Source of the DNA: Candidatus Daviesbacteria bacterium
GTDB taxonomy: Bacteria; Patescibacteriota; Microgenomatia; Daviesbacterales; UBA10151
DNA length: 32,941 bases
NCBI GenBank assembly: GCA_030646805.1
Contig: JAUSKZ010000026.1
Coordinates: 1 to 32,941 of the forward strand
Reading direction: 5' to 3'
Shown: positions 1,879 to 32,299 of the stretch, one piece after another
How the letters are laid out: each line of letters opens with the position of its first letter
How positions within the stretch are numbered: position 1 is the first letter of the stretch
Made by a program: the position numbers and the translations under genes
Notes under the pieces: model-generated
The model's input: the letters and a program-made list of their open reading frames with translations, nothing else
The model's database searches: none
Told to the model about the DNA's origin: nothing

Positions 1879-2670
1879 TTAAGGAATTTGTTTAAGGAAA
1901 CTTAAAGCGCCATAAAGTCCGGAGAGATCTCCCAGCTTTGATTTAACAACCGGGGGAATATTGTTTTGAGGTCGGATTTTTTCCATCTCCCTTTTAATTT
2001 GATCAAAAGGTAAAGACTCCGCGACCCCTCCTCCGAGAATTATTATCTCAGGGGCCCACTTTGAGATTATCCGGTTTAGACCCCAAGCGAGATGCTCTGC
2101 CACCTCAGTCCAAGCTGTCGGGTCGGTTAACTCCCCGGCCGGAGTACCATAAATTTTTTCAATCCCGGTGCCGGAAATCAAACTTTCCCACTCCTGGCCG
2201 TTCTTGAGTGTCATATGACCAACATCATCTTTAATACTGGCGGGGTCTAATTTGCCGTCGATTACCTGGGCTCCGCCCACTCCGGTACTGAGGGTCAGAT
2301 AGGCAACATGTTTAAAACCAATACCTGCGCCATAAGTTGCTTCTCCCAAGGCTGCCAAGGCAGCGTCATTTTCTAAATATACAGGAGAGTTGGTAACCGC
2401 CATCAAATCTTCTTTAATTGGCTGGTTTATCCAAAGAGGCAAGTGAGGAGCCTGGCTTAGAGTTGATTTATCAGGAGTTAACAAGCCGGGCAGGCCAACC
2501 ATAGTTTGAGTTATTAAGTGACTTTCTGAGATAGTAAGATAGTTTTTGATCTGGGTGATCGCTTGGTGGTAGTTTTGGGGTGTCTCAAAGATTTCGACGT
2601 CACTTAACTCCTCGGAATCACTTAAAGCCAGTCGGGTTTTGGTCCCACCAATATCCAAAAGGAGTAACAT
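1879..2670 (-). CDS. ROK family sugar kinase (glucokinase-like)
   Basis: ROK-fold kinase that likely phosphorylates glucose or a related hexose with ATP, feeding glucose 6-phosphate to the zwf/gnd/pgi genes of this window. The phosphate-binding motif LLLLDIGGTKTRLALSD is at the N-terminus, the catalytic-loop region LENDAALAALGEA is present, and GVGGAQVIDGKL and GGGVAES follow. The usual zinc motif CxCGxxGCxE is absent: after the conserved GH the sequence runs MTLKNGQEWESL, so this is a Zn-less ROK variant. I chose ATG 2670 (263 aa) over the upstream GTG at 2691 because TATAAT (2677-2682) sits exactly 6 bases before it and because the resulting N-terminus, MLLLLDIGGTK, matches the family. It is divergent from the first sigma gene. 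Confidence 0.88.
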   Translation of the reverse strand: MLLLLDIGGTKTRLALSDSEELSDVEIFETPQNYHQAITQIKNYLTISESHLITQTMVGLPGLLTPDKSTLSQAPHLPLWINQPIKEDLMAVTNSPVYLENDAALAALGEATYGAGIGFKHVAYLTLSTGVGGAQVIDGKLDPASIKDDVGHMTLKNGQEWESLISGTGIEKIYGTPAGELTDPTAWTEVAEHLAWGLNRIISKWAPEIIILGGGVAESLPFDQIKREMEKIRPQNNIPPVVKSKLGDLSGLYGALSFLKQIP

Positions 2671-2737
2671 CTCTAAATTATACATCTTCACTTACATATT
2701 TACCTTTTTAGCTTTTCTTTGGTATATTACAAAAACA

Positions 2738-3706
2738 ATGATTGATTTAAAGGAACCTTTTGAGACTGAAACTGAAAGTTTAAGCGCTGAGGGGCTTTAT
2801 CTACAGGAAATTGACCGGGCACCTCTTCTAACTCACCAACAAGAGATATTTTTGGCCCGATCTATCAAACGTGGTGATAGAGCCAAAGTAGCCTTGGATC
2901 TTGAGCCACCACCGATTCTAGAAGAGCGCAGATTAGGGTTTGAATCAGCGATCAGGTTAGGTGAGGTAGCCAGGTCAAGGATGATAGAATCTAATTTAAG
3001 GCTAGTCGTGTCAGTTGCTAAACATAGTTTGGGTAAAGGTTTACCGCTTTTGGATCTAGTTCAAGAGGGAAACTTCGGTTTATTCAGAGCTATTGAAAAA
3101 TTTAACCCAGACAGAGGTTTTAAGTTTGGTACTTATGCTTACCGGTGGATTAGACAAGCAGTCGAGAGGGCTGTTAAAGATAAATCCAGAACAATCAGGG
3201 TGCCTATTCCTATGGTTGAGGAAGGACACACTGTTATTGGGAGAATGCGTAGGGCGGAAGTCTTCTTAGGTAATATGTTGGGGCGGGATCCAAGTTTAAA
3301 AGAGACAGCTCAAGAGATCGGAGTTCCGACAGACCAGCTTGAATTTTTATTATCTTTATTTAATAGACCGGATTCGTTAAACTCAAAAAAAGCGGTCACA
3401 GATATAGACGGAGAAGATGTTTACAACTTAGTTGCTGATAAAACTACGCCTGTCCCGGAAGAACAATCGTTTATCCAAAGTTTGAGAAGAGACTTGAGAA
3501 GTATTTTTGATGATATATTAACAGCAAAAGAGAGAGGAGCTCTTCTTTTGCGGTTTGGTTTGAACGGTGAGGCTGGGATGGCGTATGAACAGATTGGAAA
3601 TAGATTGGGATTTTCCCGGGAATCAGCTAGGCAGACTGAAGCTAGAGCTTTGGAAAAACTACGGGATCCGAAGATAAGGGATAGACTAAAGGATTATTTG
3701 ACCTAA
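2738..3706 (+). CDS. Sigma-70 family factor 1 (divergent, 322 aa)
   Basis: First of four consecutive sigma-70 genes. It has region 1.2 (LYLQEIDRAPLLT, 20-32), region 2 (about 77-160), region 3 and a region 4 helix-turn-helix (about 282-308), but no region 1.1. It departs from the housekeeping type at promoter-contacting positions. In region 2.3-2.4 the usual TWWIRQAITR reads YRWIRQAVER, so the first melting tryptophan is Arg and the -12-contacting Thr is Glu. In region 4.2 RERIRQIE reads RESARQTE. It therefore probably reads altered promoters. I place the start at ATG 2738 rather than at an upstream in-frame codon inside the divergent kinase gene; a TATATT at 2723-2728 lies 9 bases before it, implying an almost leaderless mRNA. 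The next sigma gene follows after 3 bases. Confidence 0.93.
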   Translation: MIDLKEPFETETESLSAEGLYLQEIDRAPLLTHQQEIFLARSIKRGDRAKVALDLEPPPILEERRLGFESAIRLGEVARSRMIESNLRLVVSVAKHSLGKGLPLLDLVQEGNFGLFRAIEKFNPDRGFKFGTYAYRWIRQAVERAVKDKSRTIRVPIPMVEEGHTVIGRMRRAEVFLGNMLGRDPSLKETAQEIGVPTDQLEFLLSLFNRPDSLNSKKAVTDIDGEDVYNLVADKTTPVPEEQSFIQSLRRDLRSIFDDILTAKERGALLLRFGLNGEAGMAYEQIGNRLGFSRESARQTEARALEKLRDPKIRDRLKDYLT

Positions 3707-3709
3707 AAA

Positions 3710-4738
3710 ATGGTAGTTGAAAATAAACAAGAAATTATCCAATTCGATCCGGAAATTTATTTGATTGAGAAAGAAGCAGCTAATTTGAGGGTTGGAGACT
3801 TAGTGGTTGATAGTCCGCTGAATATGTATTTTCGGGATATAACTCAGTTTCCACTTTTGACCCTGGCTGAGGAAAAGAGAATGACTCGGAGTTTTGATAG
3901 AGCCAGGCGGTTGCGGACTGAGTTGGAAAGTCGGGGAGAAAATTCTATTTTAGTCGATCAAGCCCGAGGACGAGAGAGACTGCTTCGAAATGGCTTGACT
4001 GAGGCCAATCTTAGGTTGGTGGTGGCTATGGCCAAAAGGTATAGTGGTAGAGGGGTCGAGGCGTCTGATTTAATTCAGATGGGAAACGAAGGTTTGATGA
4101 AAGCTGTTGAGAAATTTGATTGGAAAAAGGGTTTTAAGTTTTCAACTTACGCTACCTGGTGGATTAGACAAGCGGTCTCTCGTGGTGTAATTGACGAGGG
4201 TCGAACAATTAGAATTCCTGTTCACTTTATTCCGGGTATTAATGCCTTAAATAGAACCAGGACTCAGTTGGAACGTGAAAGAGAAAGCGGTGATATCAGT
4301 CTGGCTGAAATAGCTGAAGCTATGGGTATACCCGAAGCAAAAGCTTTAGAGCTACATCAAGCGTCTTTAGGGGTCATGTCACTTGACCTGCGGGTAGGAA
4401 GTGACGATGATGACGCTTCTTTCGCCGAGTATTTGCCTGATCTCCAAGCTGATACAGCCCGGGAAGCGGAAGATAATCTCCGGTCTTCTGAAATTCGAAG
4501 AATCCTCGATCAACAAAGTAGTCCAAATCCAGGACAAAGTATAAAACCAATCAAACCAAGACATGTCGAGATTTTTCGAGATAGGCATGGTTTGGACGAT
4601 GGACAACCCAAAACTTTAGGGGTAGTTGCGCAAAGATTCGGAGTTAGCCGGGAAAGGGTCAGACAGATTGAGGGTAAAGTTTTCGAAAAATTGAGGCATC
4701 CATCGGTAACTCGGGAGTTGGCAGTTTTTTTAGATTAA
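3710..4738 (+). CDS. Sigma-70 family factor 2 (342 aa)
   Basis: Second sigma gene, three bases after the first with no promoter or Shine-Dalgarno visible between them, so probably co-transcribed. Region 1.2 is [18 protein letters not shown] (34-51). Region 2 holds [16 protein letters not shown] and [16 protein letters not shown] (146-160) with both melting tryptophans kept. The usual ADQARTIR is altered to IDEGRTIR. Region 4.2, [20 protein letters not shown], keeps the -35-reading core RERxRQIE. Before it the usual region 4.1 is replaced by a segment with [17 protein letters not shown], an unusual spacer. It begins MVVE, as do the fourth factor and, nearly (MVAE), the third. The role is likely an alternative group 2-type sigma; which promoters it serves is unknown. 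Confidence 0.93.
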
Positions 4739-4749
4739 TAGTGAATGAG

Positions 4750-4788
4750 ACTATATTCGCTCGCGATTTCAAGGCTCGCGATATAATT
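4750..4788. promoter_or_regulatory. 39-bp promoter/operator cassette, copy A (before sigma 3)
   Basis: The sequence contains two TCGCGA palindromes (4761-4766 and 4776-4781), 15 bases apart, flanked by a TATAAT on the plus strand (4782-4787) and a TATAGT read on the minus strand at the other end. By my count 37 of 39 bases are identical to the reverse complement of 6073-6111, in front of the fourth sigma gene. The plus-strand TATAAT is 10 bases before the sigma-3 ATG. It looks like a bidirectional promoter with paired operator sites; that role is inference. Confidence 0.7.
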
Positions 4789-4797
4789 GAGATAATT

Positions 4798-5823
4798 ATG
4801 GTGGCAGAGGTATTAATCGACAGTCAGCCTACTCAAAGTACTCATCAGGCTGAGGTGCCTCCAATTTTGTTGAATCAACCCTCCCCTTTTTTAGAGATGG
4901 GGAAAGCCAATGGAGATTTAAACCCAACAGCCCTTTATTATAAGGATATTGATCAGGCTAAGTTGTTAACTGCCCGAGATGAAAAGACTTTAGCCCAGAC
5001 AATTGAGAGAGGTAAGCAAGCTTATCAAATTTTACAAACTAGAGACGATTCCGACCCCCAAGTGCTGTCTCGTTTTAACCGATTGATTTCCTCCGGTGAA
5101 AAAGCCAGATTAAGATTAATTGAAGCCAATTTAAGGCTGGTTGTTTCGGTAGCCAAAAAATATATGGGTCGTGGTTTACCGCTGGATGATTTAATCCAGG
5201 AGGGGAATATCGGCCTAGCCCGGGCAGTTGAGAAATTTGAGTGGCGACAGGGTTTTAGGTTTTCAACCTATGCCCATTGGTGGATTAGACAAGGAGTCTC
5301 AAGGGCTCTGGCAGATCAGGCGAGAACAATTCGAATCCCGGTTCATGTCGGCGTAAAGATCCAACAATCCATTAGTGCTGCCCGGAAGCTGGAACAAGAC
5401 TTAGAGCGGGAACCAACTATCGACGAGATAGCTGTTGAACTAAAATGGAAGCCCAAGAGAGTTGAAGAGATTTTCTTGGCTGCCCAGCAACACCGGTTAG
5501 TCTCCCTAGATACTCCAATTGGTGAGGATGAAGGGGATACTACGATTGGAGATTTGGTAGATTCTGATGTAGATACTGCAGAAGAGGCAGTTCAAGCTAC
5601 CAGTCGGTCAACAATTGACGAGGTTTTAGGAGAGTTAAATAAAAACGAACAAAGAGTATTGAGGTTACGGTTTGGCTTAACAGATGGAAATGCGAGAACC
5701 TTACAAGAAGTTGGGGATGAATTGGATGTCAGTCGGGAGAGGATCAGGCAAATTGAAGCTGAGGCACTGGGTAAATTAAGACGCTCAAAAAATGCTGCCA
5801 AACTAAAGGGGTTGCAAGACTGA
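4798..5823 (+). CDS. Sigma-70 family factor 3 (most housekeeping-like)
   Basis: Of the four this is closest to the RpoD/SigA consensus: NPTALYYKDIDQAKLLTA (region 1.2), [30 protein letters not shown] (split over region 2.1-2.2), STYAHWWIRQGVSRALADQARTIRIP (2.3-2.4 with both tryptophans) and VSRERIRQIEAEALGKLRR (4.2). Region 3 carries the usual LDTPIGEDEGD finger-like loop. It lacks region 1.1. An in-frame GTG at 4741 exists, but I prefer ATG 4798 (341 aa) because a TATAAT lies at 4782-4787 and the N-terminus MVAE then matches factors 2 and 4. It is preceded by promoter cassette A, so it can be expressed independently of factors 1 and 2. It is likely the primary sigma factor, though factor 4 is also a candidate. 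Confidence 0.94.
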   Translation: MVAEVLIDSQPTQSTHQAEVPPILLNQPSPFLEMGKANGDLNPTALYYKDIDQAKLLTARDEKTLAQTIERGKQAYQILQTRDDSDPQVLSRFNRLISSGEKARLRLIEANLRLVVSVAKKYMGRGLPLDDLIQEGNIGLARAVEKFEWRQGFRFSTYAHWWIRQGVSRALADQARTIRIPVHVGVKIQQSISAARKLEQDLEREPTIDEIAVELKWKPKRVEEIFLAAQQHRLVSLDTPIGEDEGDTTIGDLVDSDVDTAEEAVQATSRSTIDEVLGELNKNEQRVLRLRFGLTDGNARTLQEVGDELDVSRERIRQIEAEALGKLRRSKNAAKLKGLQD

Positions 5824-5850
5824 AAAGTTCTGAGGCCTTAGTCTTAATGT

Positions 5851-5980
5851 GTCATTCTGGGGACTCAGAGCGAAGCGTGAGGACTCCAGAATCTATAAAA
5901 CAAAAAGATCCTGGACAAGCTCGCCTCGCTTGCGCTCTGGCCAGCTTCGCGGCTAGGCGGGCGAAGCGGGCCAGGATGAC
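5851..5980. repeat. GTCATTCTGG palindromic (MITE/RPE-like) element
   Basis: A 130-bp element in the roughly 300-bp gap between sigma 3 and sigma 4. It begins GTCATTCTGG and ends CCAGGATGAC, imperfect inverted termini, with internal GC-rich hairpins including a GGACTC/GAGTCC-type stem. Related ends occur at 7496-7573, 9753-9840, 28012-28080 and 30840-30867. No open frame of note. The rest of the gap, 5981-6072, shows nothing I can identify. Confidence 0.75.
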
Positions 5981-6072
5981 AGAGTGTATATCAGCTTCAA
6001 TCACAACATGAAAGCCTTAGTGAGTTACAAATAGTAAGGGTACAAAATGTGGTGAAGGAACAAGATTTTCGA

Positions 6073-6111
6073 AATTATATCGCGAGCCTTGGATTCGCGA
6101 GCGAATATAGT
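6073..6111. promoter_or_regulatory. 39-bp promoter/operator cassette, copy B (inverted, before sigma 4)
   Basis: Inverted copy of 4750-4788 with two mismatches. TCGCGA palindromes are at 6080-6085 and 6095-6100. On the plus strand the cassette ends in TATAGT (6106-6111). Immediately overlapping it, TTGGAT (6089-6094), 16 bases, TAAAAT (6111-6116), 6 bases, ATG 6123 form a promoter with the leaderless geometry seen elsewhere in the window. The minus-strand TATAAT points into the intergenic region. Confidence 0.7.
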
Positions 6112-6122
6112 AAAATTAGAAT

Positions 6123-7475
6123 ATGGTGGTAGAAGCTCCGTTACGCGTTATAACTGACTCGCCCCAAGCCTTAGTGGGGCATCACTCGCTTGAAGTAAAG
6201 GTAGCTCCGCTGCGTGGCGATGAGTTTATCAGATCGTTCCTAGAAAAGAATAATCTTAATACTCCTCAGACTGATCTTATTCTTTGGGCCAGAGCAACCC
6301 CTGAAGTTTGGCAAAGAGAAAGACCTCTGAGAAAAGCCCTGCTTAACCTCTCTTTGTTTGGATTCGGAGAACATAAAATAGCCAAAAGAGTCTCGGATCT
6401 TTTTAATATCCCCCAAGAAAAAGTAGGAGCGGAGTACCAAAAAGCCCTGGCCAGGCTGGGTGAAAAACAACGGCAAATATCAGTTCAGAAAGACGATAAT
6501 GAGGAGGAGCCTGAGGAATTTGATGAAGAGGTTCATCAGCTAGAGCAAGAAGCGGGGCGTTCGGAGGAGGGTGGTCAAGTTCCAGAAGCACTACAGATGT
6601 ACTTTGATGGACTCCGTTTGGTTCCACTCTTAAATGGCTACGAAGAGAGGTCAAGAGCTTGGGCCTTGGTCCGTCAAAGAGCAATCCGGCAGAGATTGGA
6701 GGCAGATCCTGAGGCTAGTGACCAAAGTTTAAAGGAAGCCTGGGAAAAAGAAAGAATTTTCCGTAATAACTTGATCGAACCCAACTTAAGGCTGGTGGTT
6801 TCGGTGGCTAAAAGATATATGGGCCGGGGTTTACCGCTAGCTGATCTAATTCAGGAGGGAAATATTGGCTTATTCAGAGCTGTTGAAAAGTTTAAACTAG
6901 AAAAAGGTTTTAAATTTTCAACTTATGCTACCTGGTGGATTAGGCAATCAGTGATGAGGGGAATAGCCGATCAGGCGAGGATCATCAGACGTCCAGTTCA
7001 TATGGAGGGAACTCTTAATTTATATAGAAAAGCCAAGGGAGAACTGGAGCAGGATCTAAAAAGAGCTGTTAGTAATAATGAAATAGCTGTTCATATGGGG
7101 GTGAGTGAGGAAAGGGTGGCTATGTTTCAAAAATTCTCAAGTAGCGTTAGTTCCTTGGATAAGCCGATTGGAGAAGACGAATCGACGATCGGTGATTTGG
7201 TTGCCTCAGATCAAAAGCCGGTAGATGCCGAGGCAGAGCAATCTATCCGCCGGGAGAAGATTGCCACCCTGCTAGAAGGAGCTTTAGATCCGAGAGAGGT
7301 GGTTACGATTAAATTGAGGTTTGGACTTGTTGATGGTGGAGAAAGAACTTTAGAGGAGATAGGACGCGAACTTGGCCTGTCTCGGGAGAGAGCCAGGCAA
7401 ATCCAGGAGGAGGCACTGAAGAAATTAAGACACCCTTCCAGATCTAAGGTACTTAAGGATTGGCTGGATGAGTAG
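6123..7475 (+). CDS. Sigma-70 family factor 4 with N-terminal extension (450 aa)
   Basis: Fourth sigma factor, longest of the set. The first ~140 residues are not a normal region 1.1. They hold a predicted helical, HTH-like block ([20 protein letters not shown] near 80-98) followed by a very acidic linker ([13 protein letters not shown] near 124-136). Region 1.2 is [15 protein letters not shown], region 2 contains [22 protein letters not shown] and [26 protein letters not shown], region 3 has [16 protein letters not shown], and region 4.2 is [20 protein letters not shown]. The -12-contacting Thr position is Met, and RTIRIP reads RIIRRP. The start is supported by TAAAAT six bases upstream. It is preceded by inverted cassette B, suggesting shared control with factor 3. 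Confidence 0.94.
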
Positions 7476-7495: not shown

Positions 7496-7573
7496 GTCAT
7501 CCTGAGAAGTAAAACGACGAAGGATCTCACAAGTAGAAGCGTCCAAGGGATTCTTCGCTATGCTCAGAATGAC
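7496..7573. repeat. GTCATCCTGAG palindromic element
   Basis: A 78-bp element starting GTCATCCTGAG and ending CTCAGAATGAC, the same family as 5851-5980. It lies between sigma 4 and the 641-aa gene, just after a short ACACAA/TTGTGT hairpin that starts behind the sigma-4 stop. No coding function is seen. Confidence 0.8.
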
Positions 7574-7636: not shown

Positions 7637-9562
7637 ATGGCTTTAAGAGAATTTCAATCACTGACTGATCAAGTGCTAGATAGAGCAGTTGAATTTGGAA
7701 CTCAGAATTTGTCTCTGATTAGGGAGAGAGATTTTGCGGGGGCACTGGCAGCTGATAAAGATAAAGATGAGGCCTTAATTGTCTATGAAAGGTTGCTTGA
7801 AATTCAGGCGGAAGTGGAAGGGTATGCCGGACGTTTTCATCTAACGCCACTTCTGGATCAGACTACTTTTGACAGACCCGGGATGTTTATGGTTGGCAGA
7901 GATCCTGACAGGGTGCCTTTGATAGATGATCGGGAGAGCAGTTTGGATTCCATAGATAAAACAGATGATGACTTATATTTTTCAGCTAAACGCGATAAAA
8001 ACACAGGTTTTCCCCGGGTTGAAGTAGTTTTAGAACCGGCTCCAAAGATAGGATCAAGTCCTGATGTTATCGCTGACGCTCAAACAATAGGATCAAGTCC
8101 TGATGTTATCGCTGACGCTCAAACAATAGAATCAAGTCCTGTTTCCTCACTAAGTTCGGAAATAGAATCAAGTCCTGATGTTATCGTTGACGCTCAAACA
8201 ATTAAAGTACCTCAGTCAGAGCCGGTCATAATAAAGCCTGAAAAGAAAAGAATGACCTTTCATTTGTCCAGCTTACAGAGAGCGGTAATGGAAGCACTTT
8301 TGGTTGGTGATGAGGAAGGGATAACTTACCGTTATCCACGGCTGGTTGATGTATCCCGCCAGTTGTATGGAGATAAATTCAGAGTCAAAGGTCTTTCCGG
8401 ACAAGCATTAAATATCGCCTTCAACTCTATAGGTGGTAGTATTATCACTGCCCGAATAGAGATTATAAATAAAGCCTTGGAAAAAGCTAAAAATCCTCAC
8501 CACCCCTCAGACGAGGAGTTTGATGAGTTTTTCCAAGCCATAACTCAAGGGAATAACGCTGCGATTGGGGTTGTGGATAGAGCTGCCAGACGTAAGATTA
8601 CTTTTGCTCAGTTTCAAGAGAAGTTCAGACTTGTTACCGGGGTAGAGTTTAGTCTTCCGCCAAAGGCCACCCAGGATTCAGGGGTTGAACTCCTAAATGG
8701 CGTTCAGGAAGAGGGTTTAGACATGGCTACCACGGCTGTTACCGTTCCTTTTCTAGATTCTGACAGTAGTAATGGTAATGGTGCATCTAAGCCTCAAGAA
8801 GAACTCAACATCTCTTCCGATCAACTGAATTTTACCTGGCCTGAGATGTTGCTCTTGGCTCGAGACTTAATTGGAGTTGGTGTTGATGATGATGAAGAGA
8901 AGAGGTTTCTAGTCTCTTGCTTTGGAAATTTACGAGCTAACTCCGGAGTTGTATCCTTGTCGGAGAACCCTGAAACAGTCCTAAGACTTGAGAAGAAGCT
9001 GGGATTACTAAATGGTCCTAAAGGGAAAGAGATGGTGAGATTAATTGATAATCCGCAGATCCAAGCAGTTTTAGCTATTTATGACCGGCTTAGATCTGAC
9101 TCAATAAGTCCCGAGCCAAGTGAGGTAGTTAGTCCTCCTCCGGTTGAGGTAACTACTCCCATAGGTCGAACTACTCTTCTTCCTCCCAGGATAGTGCCTC
9201 AACATAGACGGCGGGAAGCAAATATGACCAAGGATGGACCTCCGGAATTAACTACAGCTGAGAAGTTAGTTCTTGTAGCCGGGATACTTAAGTTAAAACC
9301 TCATCAATTGAGAGAGAGAGGTATTGACCTAACTCCAGAAGATTATGCTTTACTAAGATCAATGGATCATCATTACCGAACTGACCCAAAAGTTAGGGGT
9401 GCCTTTAATGTGGCTCAAAGAACTGTATCTGGGAAGGTGAGGGAGATTAGATTTGGACTCGATCTTGGAATAATAAGCAAAGAGGATTTACCTGAGGATT
9501 TAAGAAGGATAGTCCATATTATCTCTCCCAAAAAAGCCCAAGTAGAAGTAGGTAAGATATGA
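7637..9562 (+). CDS. Orphan 641-aa multi-block protein with 13-residue repeats
   Basis: I do not recognise this family. It has a helical N-terminal block (1-70), a low-complexity linker with three copies of a 13-residue unit like IGSSPDVIADAQT (DNA repeats 8048-8086, 8087-8125, 8162-8200), and then at least three helical blocks separated by acidic or Pro-rich linkers. The last block (about 560-620) contains LTPEDYALLRSMDHHY followed by NVAQRTVSGKVREIRFGLDLG, which resembles a LuxR/sigma-4-type helix-turn-helix. No membrane segment is visible. A TTGACA (7596-7601) with TATACA 17 bases on gives a good promoter 12 bases before the ATG. The stop overlaps the gnd start (ATGA), so it is coupled to 6-phosphogluconate dehydrogenase. 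A regulatory, perhaps sigma-associated, role is inference. Confidence 0.8.
   Translation: MALREFQSLTDQVLDRAVEFGTQNLSLIRERDFAGALAADKDKDEALIVYERLLEIQAEVEGYAGRFHLTPLLDQTTFDRPGMFMVGRDPDRVPLIDDRESSLDSIDKTDDDLYFSAKRDKNTGFPRVEVVLEPAPKIGSSPDVIADAQTIGSSPDVIADAQTIESSPVSSLSSEIESSPDVIVDAQTIKVPQSEPVIIKPEKKRMTFHLSSLQRAVMEALLVGDEEGITYRYPRLVDVSRQLYGDKFRVKGLSGQALNIAFNSIGGSIITARIEIINKALEKAKNPHHPSDEEFDEFFQAITQGNNAAIGVVDRAARRKITFAQFQEKFRLVTGVEFSLPPKATQDSGVELLNGVQEEGLDMATTAVTVPFLDSDSSNGNGASKPQEELNISSDQLNFTWPEMLLLARDLIGVGVDDDEEKRFLVSCFGNLRANSGVVSLSENPETVLRLEKKLGLLNGPKGKEMVRLIDNPQIQAVLAIYDRLRSDSISPEPSEVVSPPPVEVTTPIGRTTLLPPRIVPQHRRREANMTKDGPPELTTAEKLVLVAGILKLKPHQLRERGIDLTPEDYALLRSMDHHYRTDPKVRGAFNVAQRTVSGKVREIRFGLDLGIISKEDLPEDLRRIVHIISPKKAQVEVGKI
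8048..8200 (+). repeat. 39-bp tandem repeat inside the 641-aa gene
   Basis: Two perfectly adjoining copies (8048-8086 and 8087-8125) and a third, slightly diverged copy (8162-8200) after a degenerate spacer. The unit length is a multiple of three, so copy number can change without breaking the frame. Confidence 0.9.
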
Positions 9563-10596
9563 AGATGAAATTGGGGTATGTAGGGCTCGGAAAGATGGGG
9601 AAGAATATGGTTTTAAGGCTGTCTGAACAAGGCATTAAAATTGTGGCTTGGAATAGATCAGTTGAGCCTCGTGAGGAAGTCCGTAAAGCAGGAGTTGAGG
9701 TAGCAGATTCACTTGAAGAGTTGATATCTAAACTCAAAGAACGACCTAGTTCGTCATTGCGAGCTTCAGCGAAGCAATCTCAGAGCGAGATTACTACGTC
9801 ACTCAAAGGTCATTTAGACCTTCTCCCTTCTCGTAATGACGGTATTATTATTTGGATCATGTTAACTGCTGGTTCCGCGACAGATGAAATTTTAAACCAA
9901 CTTACCCCACTTCTTTCTAAAGGCGATCTAGTTATTGATGGGGGAAACTCTTTTTATAAAGATACCCTAGAGCGGGCAGAGAGGTTGAGTAAAGAGGGTA
10001 TCCATTATATGGATATAGGTACGTCCGGGGGTCCAAACGGAGCCAGAACTGGAGCTTGTTTGATGATCGGTGGGAGTAAGGAAGATTTTGAGAGGATCCG
10101 ACCTTTGGTAGAGGCAGCTTCTGCCCCACAAGCTTATGGACACTTTGGACCAGTAGGTAGTGGACACTTTGCCAAGATGGTTCATAACGGTATTGAATAT
10201 GGGATGATGGAAGCAATCGGTGAAGGGGCTGCAGTTTTGAAATCCTCAGGCTTAAAACTTGATTTGGCAGAGGTCTTCCGGGTTTACAATAACCGTTCGG
10301 TGATTGAATCAAGGCTAGTAGATTGGACTCAGCAAGCTTTACAGGAAGACTCTGAACTTTCAGAGATCTCAGAGGTTATTGGCCACAGTGGAGAGGGTGA
10401 ATGGACGATCAAGACGGCAGAGGAGCTTGGTGTTCCAGTACCAGTAATTAAAGAATCTTTTAGGGTCAGAGTCAACTCTAAAGAAGAACCAAAAGGAGCT
10501 AAGAATCCTCAAGCAGTCATCTTTAGAAACCGGGTGGTTTCAGCGATGCGCGGTAAATTTGGTCTACATCAAGTTAAAAGAGGCTCGGTGGGTTAA
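9559..10596 (+). CDS. gnd: 6-phosphogluconate dehydrogenase, decarboxylating (NAD-type short form)
   Basis: Oxidises and decarboxylates 6-phosphogluconate to ribulose 5-phosphate. The Rossmann motif is GLGKMG (9-14). The substrate motif GTSGGPNGAR is at 154-163 and the catalytic GHFAKMVHNGIEYG, with K206 and N210, follows. The C-terminal region is short, as in the YqeC/GndA subgroup of about 300 aa. The protein is longer (345 aa) because residues about 62-95 are an insertion encoded by a palindromic repeat (9753-9840), placed in the loop before the GIIIWIMLTAGSATDE strand. The frame stays open. The start overlaps the stop of the 641-aa gene (ATGA); M3 is an alternative. The 3' end overlaps the convergent Clp-N gene by 23 bases. 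No 6-phosphogluconolactonase gene is seen in the window. Confidence 0.94.
   Translation: MKMKLGYVGLGKMGKNMVLRLSEQGIKIVAWNRSVEPREEVRKAGVEVADSLEELISKLKERPSSSLRASAKQSQSEITTSLKGHLDLLPSRNDGIIIWIMLTAGSATDEILNQLTPLLSKGDLVIDGGNSFYKDTLERAERLSKEGIHYMDIGTSGGPNGARTGACLMIGGSKEDFERIRPLVEAASAPQAYGHFGPVGSGHFAKMVHNGIEYGMMEAIGEGAAVLKSSGLKLDLAEVFRVYNNRSVIESRLVDWTQQALQEDSELSEISEVIGHSGEGEWTIKTAEELGVPVPVIKESFRVRVNSKEEPKGAKNPQAVIFRNRVVSAMRGKFGLHQVKRGSVG
9753..9840. repeat. Palindromic element inserted in frame in gnd
   Basis: It begins GTCATTGCGAG and ends CTCGTAATGAC, inverted termini of the window's dispersed repeat family. It is translated as part of residues 62-95 of Gnd without a stop, similar in behaviour to the protein-coding palindromic elements (RPEs) known from Rickettsia. 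Confidence 0.85.
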
Positions 10597-27653: not shown

Positions 27654-29608
<1,955 letters not shown>

Positions 29609-30839: not shown

Positions 30840-30867
30840 GTCATTCTGAGCTACTCGCGAAGAATCT
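30840..30867. repeat. Partial GTCATTCTGAG element
   Basis: GTCATTCTGAG followed by GCGAAGAATCT, half of the palindromic family seen elsewhere in the window; a matching right end is not present. Confidence 0.75.
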
Positions 30868-31401: not shown

Positions 31402-32299
31402 GACTTCTAATTGGAAAGTTAGGATATCCTCTTAAAAAACTATCAAGATCAGTCGGTTTTTTTCCTTCTATTTGAACCATTCCTTCCGGCAAAAACTTTA
31501 CTATTTTCTCATTTTTATCCCCCGAAGCCTTGGCGAAGGGGGACCATTTAGTCCAAGCTGTTGGCCAAGGATAATAAGCCCGGATCATCCTATCTAATTT
31601 TTCCAAGAATTCTTGAGTTACCTGCCTGCCGGCAGGTCGAAGATCCTGGAAGGGCAGGTCAAAATAACCATCCTCTTTAGTAATTCGGTTACAATAAGAC
31701 GCTATAGCGTGGTCTTGTACACATAAGTTAATTTTACCAGTTATAAATTCTGGGATAATTTTAATTAAATCCTCTGCCGCTAGTATAAACACTTTTTTAC
31801 TCAAAGATTCAAAGGTATCTTCCTTTGAAAGTCTAAACTCCTTGGTAAATATTATTGGACCGTGATCCACCTCAGAGTCCATTTTAATAAAAGTTACTCC
31901 AGAAATTTCATCTCCGTTTAAGATAGATTCCTGAATAGGTGAGGCTCCCCGGTACTTTGGTAGAAGCGAAGGGTGGATATTGATACTTCCAAATTTAGGT
32001 ATATCTAAAATTTCTTGAGGGATAATTTTGCCATATGCTGCGACTATAAATAAATCAGGTTCAAGACTTTTTAATTTAGTGCTTACTTCCTCATCAAATA
32101 TTTTCGGGGTCAGACATGTTTTTTTAAATGCTTCTTTAATAGGTGAAGGAGTTAAAGTTTGGGTTCTGCCCACTAAATTATCAGGAGCAGTCACAACTGC
32201 CACAACGTCAAAGTTATCCTCTAAAGTTTTTAAAACTGGGATTACAAAGTGAGGTGTACCAAAAAAAACAATTTTAAGATTTTTCAAATGTTTCACCAT
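31394..32299 (-). CDS. fmt: Methionyl-tRNA formyltransferase
   Basis: Formylates initiator Met-tRNA using 10-formyl-THF. The N-terminal Rossmann domain begins LKIVFFGTPHFVIPVLKTL. The catalytic NIHPSLLPKYRGASPI has N107 and H109, and D145 lies in DHGPII. The C-terminal OB-like domain ends MVQIEGKKPTDLDSFLRGYP. Two short repeat-derived inserts are visible in the C-terminal part: RPAGRQ from the palindrome CCTGCCGGCAGG (31625-31636), and FAKASGDK from the imperfect palindrome at 31518-31543. It overlaps the def stop by 7 bases, the usual def-fmt pair, so co-transcribed with def. Confidence 0.95.
   Translation of the reverse strand: MVKHLKNLKIVFFGTPHFVIPVLKTLEDNFDVVAVVTAPDNLVGRTQTLTPSPIKEAFKKTCLTPKIFDEEVSTKLKSLEPDLFIVAAYGKIIPQEILDIPKFGSINIHPSLLPKYRGASPIQESILNGDEISGVTFIKMDSEVDHGPIIFTKEFRLSKEDTFESLSKKVFILAAEDLIKIIPEFITGKINLCVQDHAIASYCNRITKEDGYFDLPFQDLRPAGRQVTQEFLEKLDRMIRAYYPWPTAWTKWSPFAKASGDKNEKIVKFLPEGMVQIEGKKPTDLDSFLRGYPNFPIRSLK

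Follow-up and report, generated by a model that had tools for sequence, protein, structure and literature searches.

Is a palindrome that interrupts the gene for 6-phosphogluconate dehydrogenase (gnd) in a Candidatus Daviesbacteria genome read into the enzyme, and how did it come to lie there? We addressed this question for one window, the whole stretch of 32,941 nucleotides that was analysed, and followed the element through the source genome and its relatives.

The gnd gene and its neighborhood

The gnd gene (9559..10596, plus strand) is an open reading frame and encodes a protein of 345 amino acids, assigned to 6-phosphogluconate dehydrogenase with Pfam (NAD_binding_2 and 6PGD) and homologues in the PDB. 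Gnd also matched NCBIfam PRK09599/TIGR00872 above the cut-off, as two stretches, and the Pfam, NCBIfam and PDB matches are all split by an insert at residues ~63-96. The insert was placed between K-L-K-E-R-P and I-I-W-I-M, in the coenzyme domain, within the loop that leads from a helix to the strand IIWIM. Every residue that is invariant in a 50-sequence alignment is present in Gnd, in agreement with the sequence-only reading, which had described the motifs before and after the insert as intact. The gene for glucose-6-phosphate dehydrogenase (G6PD; Pfam) adjoins gnd on the opposite strand. A decaying pseudogene or an error of assembly could also produce an interrupted gene, and the source genome is a draft of 49 contigs that is 90% complete. 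However, the full reading frame with all invariant residues, the adjoining G6PD gene and the recurrence of such inserts in many essential genes from independent assemblies of other genera make such an origin extremely unlikely.

The reading frame at 7637-9562 shares 4 bp with the beginning of gnd; it encodes a 641-aa protein, contains a 39-bp tandem repeat (IGSSPDVIADAQT) and gave no Pfam match. Four sigma-70-type genes were found in tandem at 2639-7475, all four with Pfam Sigma70_r2 and r4, in a genome of 0.69 Mb.

Structure of the palindromic element

An 88-bp element with inverted termini had been described in gnd. It is present, and we added one tag base at each end: with the outer bases C9752 and G9841 the palindrome, a dimer of CGTC-tagged REP type read as SLRASAKQSQSEITTSLKGHLDLLPSRND (9752..9841, plus strand), extends to 90 bp, equal to 30 codons. 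The left terminal arm GTCATTGCGAG (9753..9763, plus strand) and the right terminal arm CTCGTAATGAC (9830..9840, minus strand, on which it reads GTCATTACGAG) agree at 10 of 11 positions, and the border of the element is fixed to about +/- 6 bp. The tags are CGTC at 9752-9755 and GACG at 9838-9841. The left REP unit (9752..9781, plus strand) reads CGTC-ATTGC...GCAAT-CTC, with an unpaired tag, a 5-bp stem and a 3-nt tail, and the right unit (9787..9841, minus strand) has the opposite orientation and contains an inner hairpin, AGGTCATTTAGACCT, at 9807-9821. Folding of 9750-9843 as RNA gave -33.4 kcal/mol (z = -4.9), with none of 200 shuffled sequences equally good, and folding as DNA gave z = -4.4. 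The frame of gnd stays open across the element without a stop, as had been noted, and stops occur in the other five frames.

Comparison of the Gnd loop with relatives

The comparison covered 109 relatives of many phyla, ranging from CPR bacteria to Firmicutes, Chloroflexi and one archaeal bin, and the borders of the insert could be seen against them. The loop has 6 residues in 99 relatives and 7 in five, as compared to 39 in the Gnd of the window. This corresponds to 33 added residues against the 6-residue loop and 32 against the 7-residue loop, close to the earlier estimate of about 34. Conservation of the stretch in distant Gnd proteins that lack the repeat had been named as an argument against an insertion; the insert peptide was absent from all 109 relatives, and likewise from 12 further relatives within the class.

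AlphaFold2 prediction of Gnd from the 50-sequence alignment gave a pLDDT of ~97 for the core and 50-61 for the insert, and the predicted fold matched 6-phosphogluconate dehydrogenases (6PGDH). The insert is thus predicted to be disordered. In a Rossmann fold, a helix-to-strand loop of this kind is located on the side opposite to the coenzyme, and the loop with the insert is probably surface-exposed.

Dispersal in the source genome and its relatives

A genome-wide search, as suggested by the sequence-only reading, showed that the element is dispersed. The exact 11-mer GTCATTGCGAG occurs in 11 copies in the 685-kb (0.69-Mb) source genome, and its reversed control in none. Copies were located by pattern search and then read in stretches; host genes were identified with Pfam, and insert borders were taken from relatives or PDB chains. 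Eleven elements were readable, eight of them in frame within genes and three between genes. The in-frame hosts are gnd, rsmH, uvrD/pcrA, polA, valS (two sites), atpG and a copA-like P-type ATPase gene. At the repeat, the polA product has ~25 extra residues, immediately ahead of the catalytic QIHDEL motif, and the atpG product ~27. The units of the polA copy are in reverse arrangement, unlike the dimers with tags outward. Matches C7, C11 and C13 are apparently incomplete copies between genes. The one-mismatch matches C9, C23 and C32, which lie in ORFs and have no partner arm, look like chance and were set aside. The copA-like gene (L039, G000:C48) has three more in-frame repeat-like insertions (ILHFVQNDM, LRQAQGK and GPSRVGEPRRR) that are shorter or absent in relatives.

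The 11-mer was also found in 33 of 45 genomes of the same family, with up to 166 copies and controls near zero, and, patchily, in 79 of 192 genomes drawn across the phylum. In five family genomes, 45 of 86 copies lay within ORFs, for which a length of at least 150 aa and margins of 40 aa were required; of the shifted control positions, 50-68% per genome did so. The expectation for intragenic copies under a passive insert-and-survive model varies strongly with the coding density that one assumes. Among the hosts in this survey were uvrD again and, judged by reading the sequences, genes resembling DNA ligase, mutM, tsaD, trigger factor, valS and comF. In 45 dimers the tags point outward, the left tag consists of GTC preceded by C or T, and the unit fold leaves the four tag bases unpaired. 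The flanks of the copies inspected showed no consistent target-site duplication. The polA gene of a relative, genome G004 (L064), has an interruption of ~400 residues that resembles an intein, starting with CLPEDTRILTSSGYIPI and ending with HRFDSEGVISKN.

Length and reading frame of translated copies

Translated and intergenic copies were compared for length and frame. Dimer lengths modulo 3 were distributed non-randomly in translated copies (8, 2, 16; p = 0.003) and randomly in intergenic ones (5, 8, 6; p = 0.69). The number of open frames per copy separated the two groups poorly (2.4 of 6 translated vs 1.9 of 6 intergenic), and therefore frame use was tested instead. The left arm was read as VIA in 22, as SLR in 13 and as RHC in one of 36 translated copies; the right arm, whose third frame contains TGA, was read as RND in 28 and as AMT in 7 of 35. 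Among intergenic copies, RHC and SLR are open equally often, and AMT is open more often than RND. With the frames about equally open there, availability does not account for the bias. After correction for availability the bias had p = 0.0002-0.007 for the left arm and p = 0.0001 for the right arm, in statistics that include some sites common to related genera, which are not independent insertions. The frame bias in translated copies suggests selection on the peptide, but part of the effect could instead reflect a target preference tied to codon position.

These data also bear on whether the element reaches the protein. The stable hairpin closes the whole element, as would suit its removal at the RNA level, intron-like or by cutting and rejoining, so that it would never appear in Gnd. 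Length modulo 3, stops and frame would then not matter, yet translated copies show a length and frame bias that intergenic copies do not. Furthermore, no self-splicing intron is known that would fit within 90 bp. Removal from the message has for these reasons hardly any likelihood, and translation of the element, with the insert peptide present in the cell, is what we infer.

Relation to known repeat systems

The earlier comparison with the palindromic elements of Rickettsia (RPE) held up, in that the window element has both the CGTC tag and the ATGAC motif. The comparison is apt because RPE-4 and RPE-6 are CGTC-tagged REPs (PMC3733652); ATGAC is common to RPE-4/6/7 (PMC3767692). Both the RPEs and the window element are short dispersed palindromes with ATGAC/GTCAT termini that lie in frame in housekeeping genes at solvent-exposed sites, and in Rickettsia as in the family studied here different element groups occupy the same sites of orthologues (PMC3767692, PMC10969869). 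For the window element, exposure is suggested by the predicted disorder. The two occur in different phyla, and they are alike by motif and description, not by sequence match. Wolbachia palindromic elements and enterobacterial RU repeats are likewise small repeats that give in-frame peptides (PMC3767692; PMC2759123).

The CGTC-tagged REPs comprise the families CGTC-1 to CGTC-4 (Di Nocera et al. 2013, PMC3733652). They share with the window element the unpaired CGTC/TGTC tag, a stem starting with AT, a 3-nt tail, a mainly head-to-head dimeric arrangement with no linked transposase, and intragenic copies, including ones in UvrD, DNA polymerase I and tRNA synthetase genes. In the same account their tag can also be CCTC, their stem is 8-9 bp, their loop 4-5 nt and their tail mostly CCA, whereas the window element has a predicted 5-bp stem, a longer, variable loop with an inner hairpin, and the tail CTC. 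About half of the copies here lie in genes, in contrast to most described REPs, which are intergenic, and the available part of the survey does not name CPR genomes (PMC3733652). On these features the window element belongs near the CGTC REPs, and outside strict membership in the four published families because of its short stem, long loop and CTC tail. Literature searches yielded unrelated papers only for the 11-mer, and nothing relevant, among the matches listed, for REP elements in Patescibacteria.

Two RAYT-like Y1 transposase (Y1_Tnp) genes were found in the source genome, at G000:C20:4458-4694 (L046) and G000:C7:48783-49010 (L047). A RAYT was considered as the mobiliser and rejected, as both genes are flanked by GGTG-type palindromes and not by the CGTC repeat. 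The source genome thus resembles REP/RAYT systems in having palindromes that adjoin Y1 transposases, but the window element shares neither the sequence nor the neighborhood of the RAYT-linked palindrome.

Other palindromes in the same loops

At least three lineages of the family have palindromes that lengthen the gnd loop. In genome G022, which is identical in sequence to a record with the label Ca. Daviesbacteria (L113), the loop holds a translated CACACCTCSGAGGTG palindrome; a pattern search of both strands of G022 matched this repeat 38 times. The G022 palindrome shares a GAGGTG core with the palindrome beside the RAYT gene L047 of the source genome. It has no ATGAC motif and belongs to an unrelated family. 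The gnd loops of G009 and G013 hold short GTCATCCTGAG- or GTCATTCTGA-type units, which possibly go back to one shared insertion, since by sequence the two Gnd proteins are each other's closest. Translated palindromes were also seen in other loops of two further Gnd proteins (L025 and L259), and at one site of AtpG in three of six genomes. Permissive loops are reused, and the gnd elements cannot all descend from one insert because the one in G022 is of another family.

Repeated extension of one loop, together with strong hairpin potential and non-random frame use, would be in line with an element that is kept for a function. It could act on the gnd message as an RNA hairpin, through pausing, stability or attenuation, or form a new functional loop of the enzyme. 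However, the same elements also occur in other genes and loops that are unrelated, prediction gave an unstructured peptide, and in most relatives this loop carries no insert. We consider retention for a function improbable.

Within the window, a second in-frame palindromic unit, GTCATCCTGAGCGTAGTGAAGGATC (28012..28036, plus strand), was seen by sequence in tgt (27663-28961), where it gives the peptide SHPERSEGS. Tgt (queuine tRNA-ribosyltransferase) gains ~49 residues between AFSLGA and MTEEGVEF, starting near this unit. Intergenic repeats of sister families are a mixed dimer GTCATCCTGAG...CTCAGAATGAC at 7496-7573 and a single unit GTCATTCTGAG...GAAGAATC at 30840-30866. A methionyl-tRNA formyltransferase-like gene has DLRPAGRQ and PFAKASGDK (31502-31546 and 31613-31651), which resemble in-frame repeats, and the DNA around DLRPAGRQ is palindromic (CCTGCCGGCAGGCAGG).

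Discussion

In our judgment the gnd element is very probably a non-autonomous mobile palindromic repeat that was inserted in gnd, is translated and is tolerated at a surface loop. Two CGTC-tagged REP units would have been inserted head to head, most likely by a transposase, and the element would since have been transcribed and translated together with gnd. Only copies whose loop, length and frame allow the protein to function would survive. The gnd element would persist owing to the surface loop, an added length that is a multiple of three, and a stop-free frame, which would give a polar, unstructured peptide with which the enzyme still works. The element has presumably been mobile in the past, and its insert in Gnd is probably close to neutral.

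In the literature consulted, protein-coding palindromes are mainly known from Rickettsia and Wolbachia, plus scattered intragenic REPs elsewhere. Here they occur in another lineage with reduced genomes, where they lie in essential enzymes and in many genera; the element is a new addition to a known kind of repeat, notable for its breadth in Patescibacteria-type genomes. The intergenic copies serve as an internal control, making selection at the protein level on an inserted peptide measurable. For Rickettsia it was left open whether insertion hot spots or the divergence of one old insert account for shared sites. The gnd loop bears on this question because the G022 element, without ATGAC, comes from another family, and divergence of one old insert cannot explain it. 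There is about an even chance that palindromes are a main and still active source of new protein segments in this family, with about half of the copies translated within conserved genes, selection on the peptide setting the frame and unrelated repeat families reusing the loops of gnd, atpG, uvrD and valS. If this is true, permissive loops would serve as shared landing sites.
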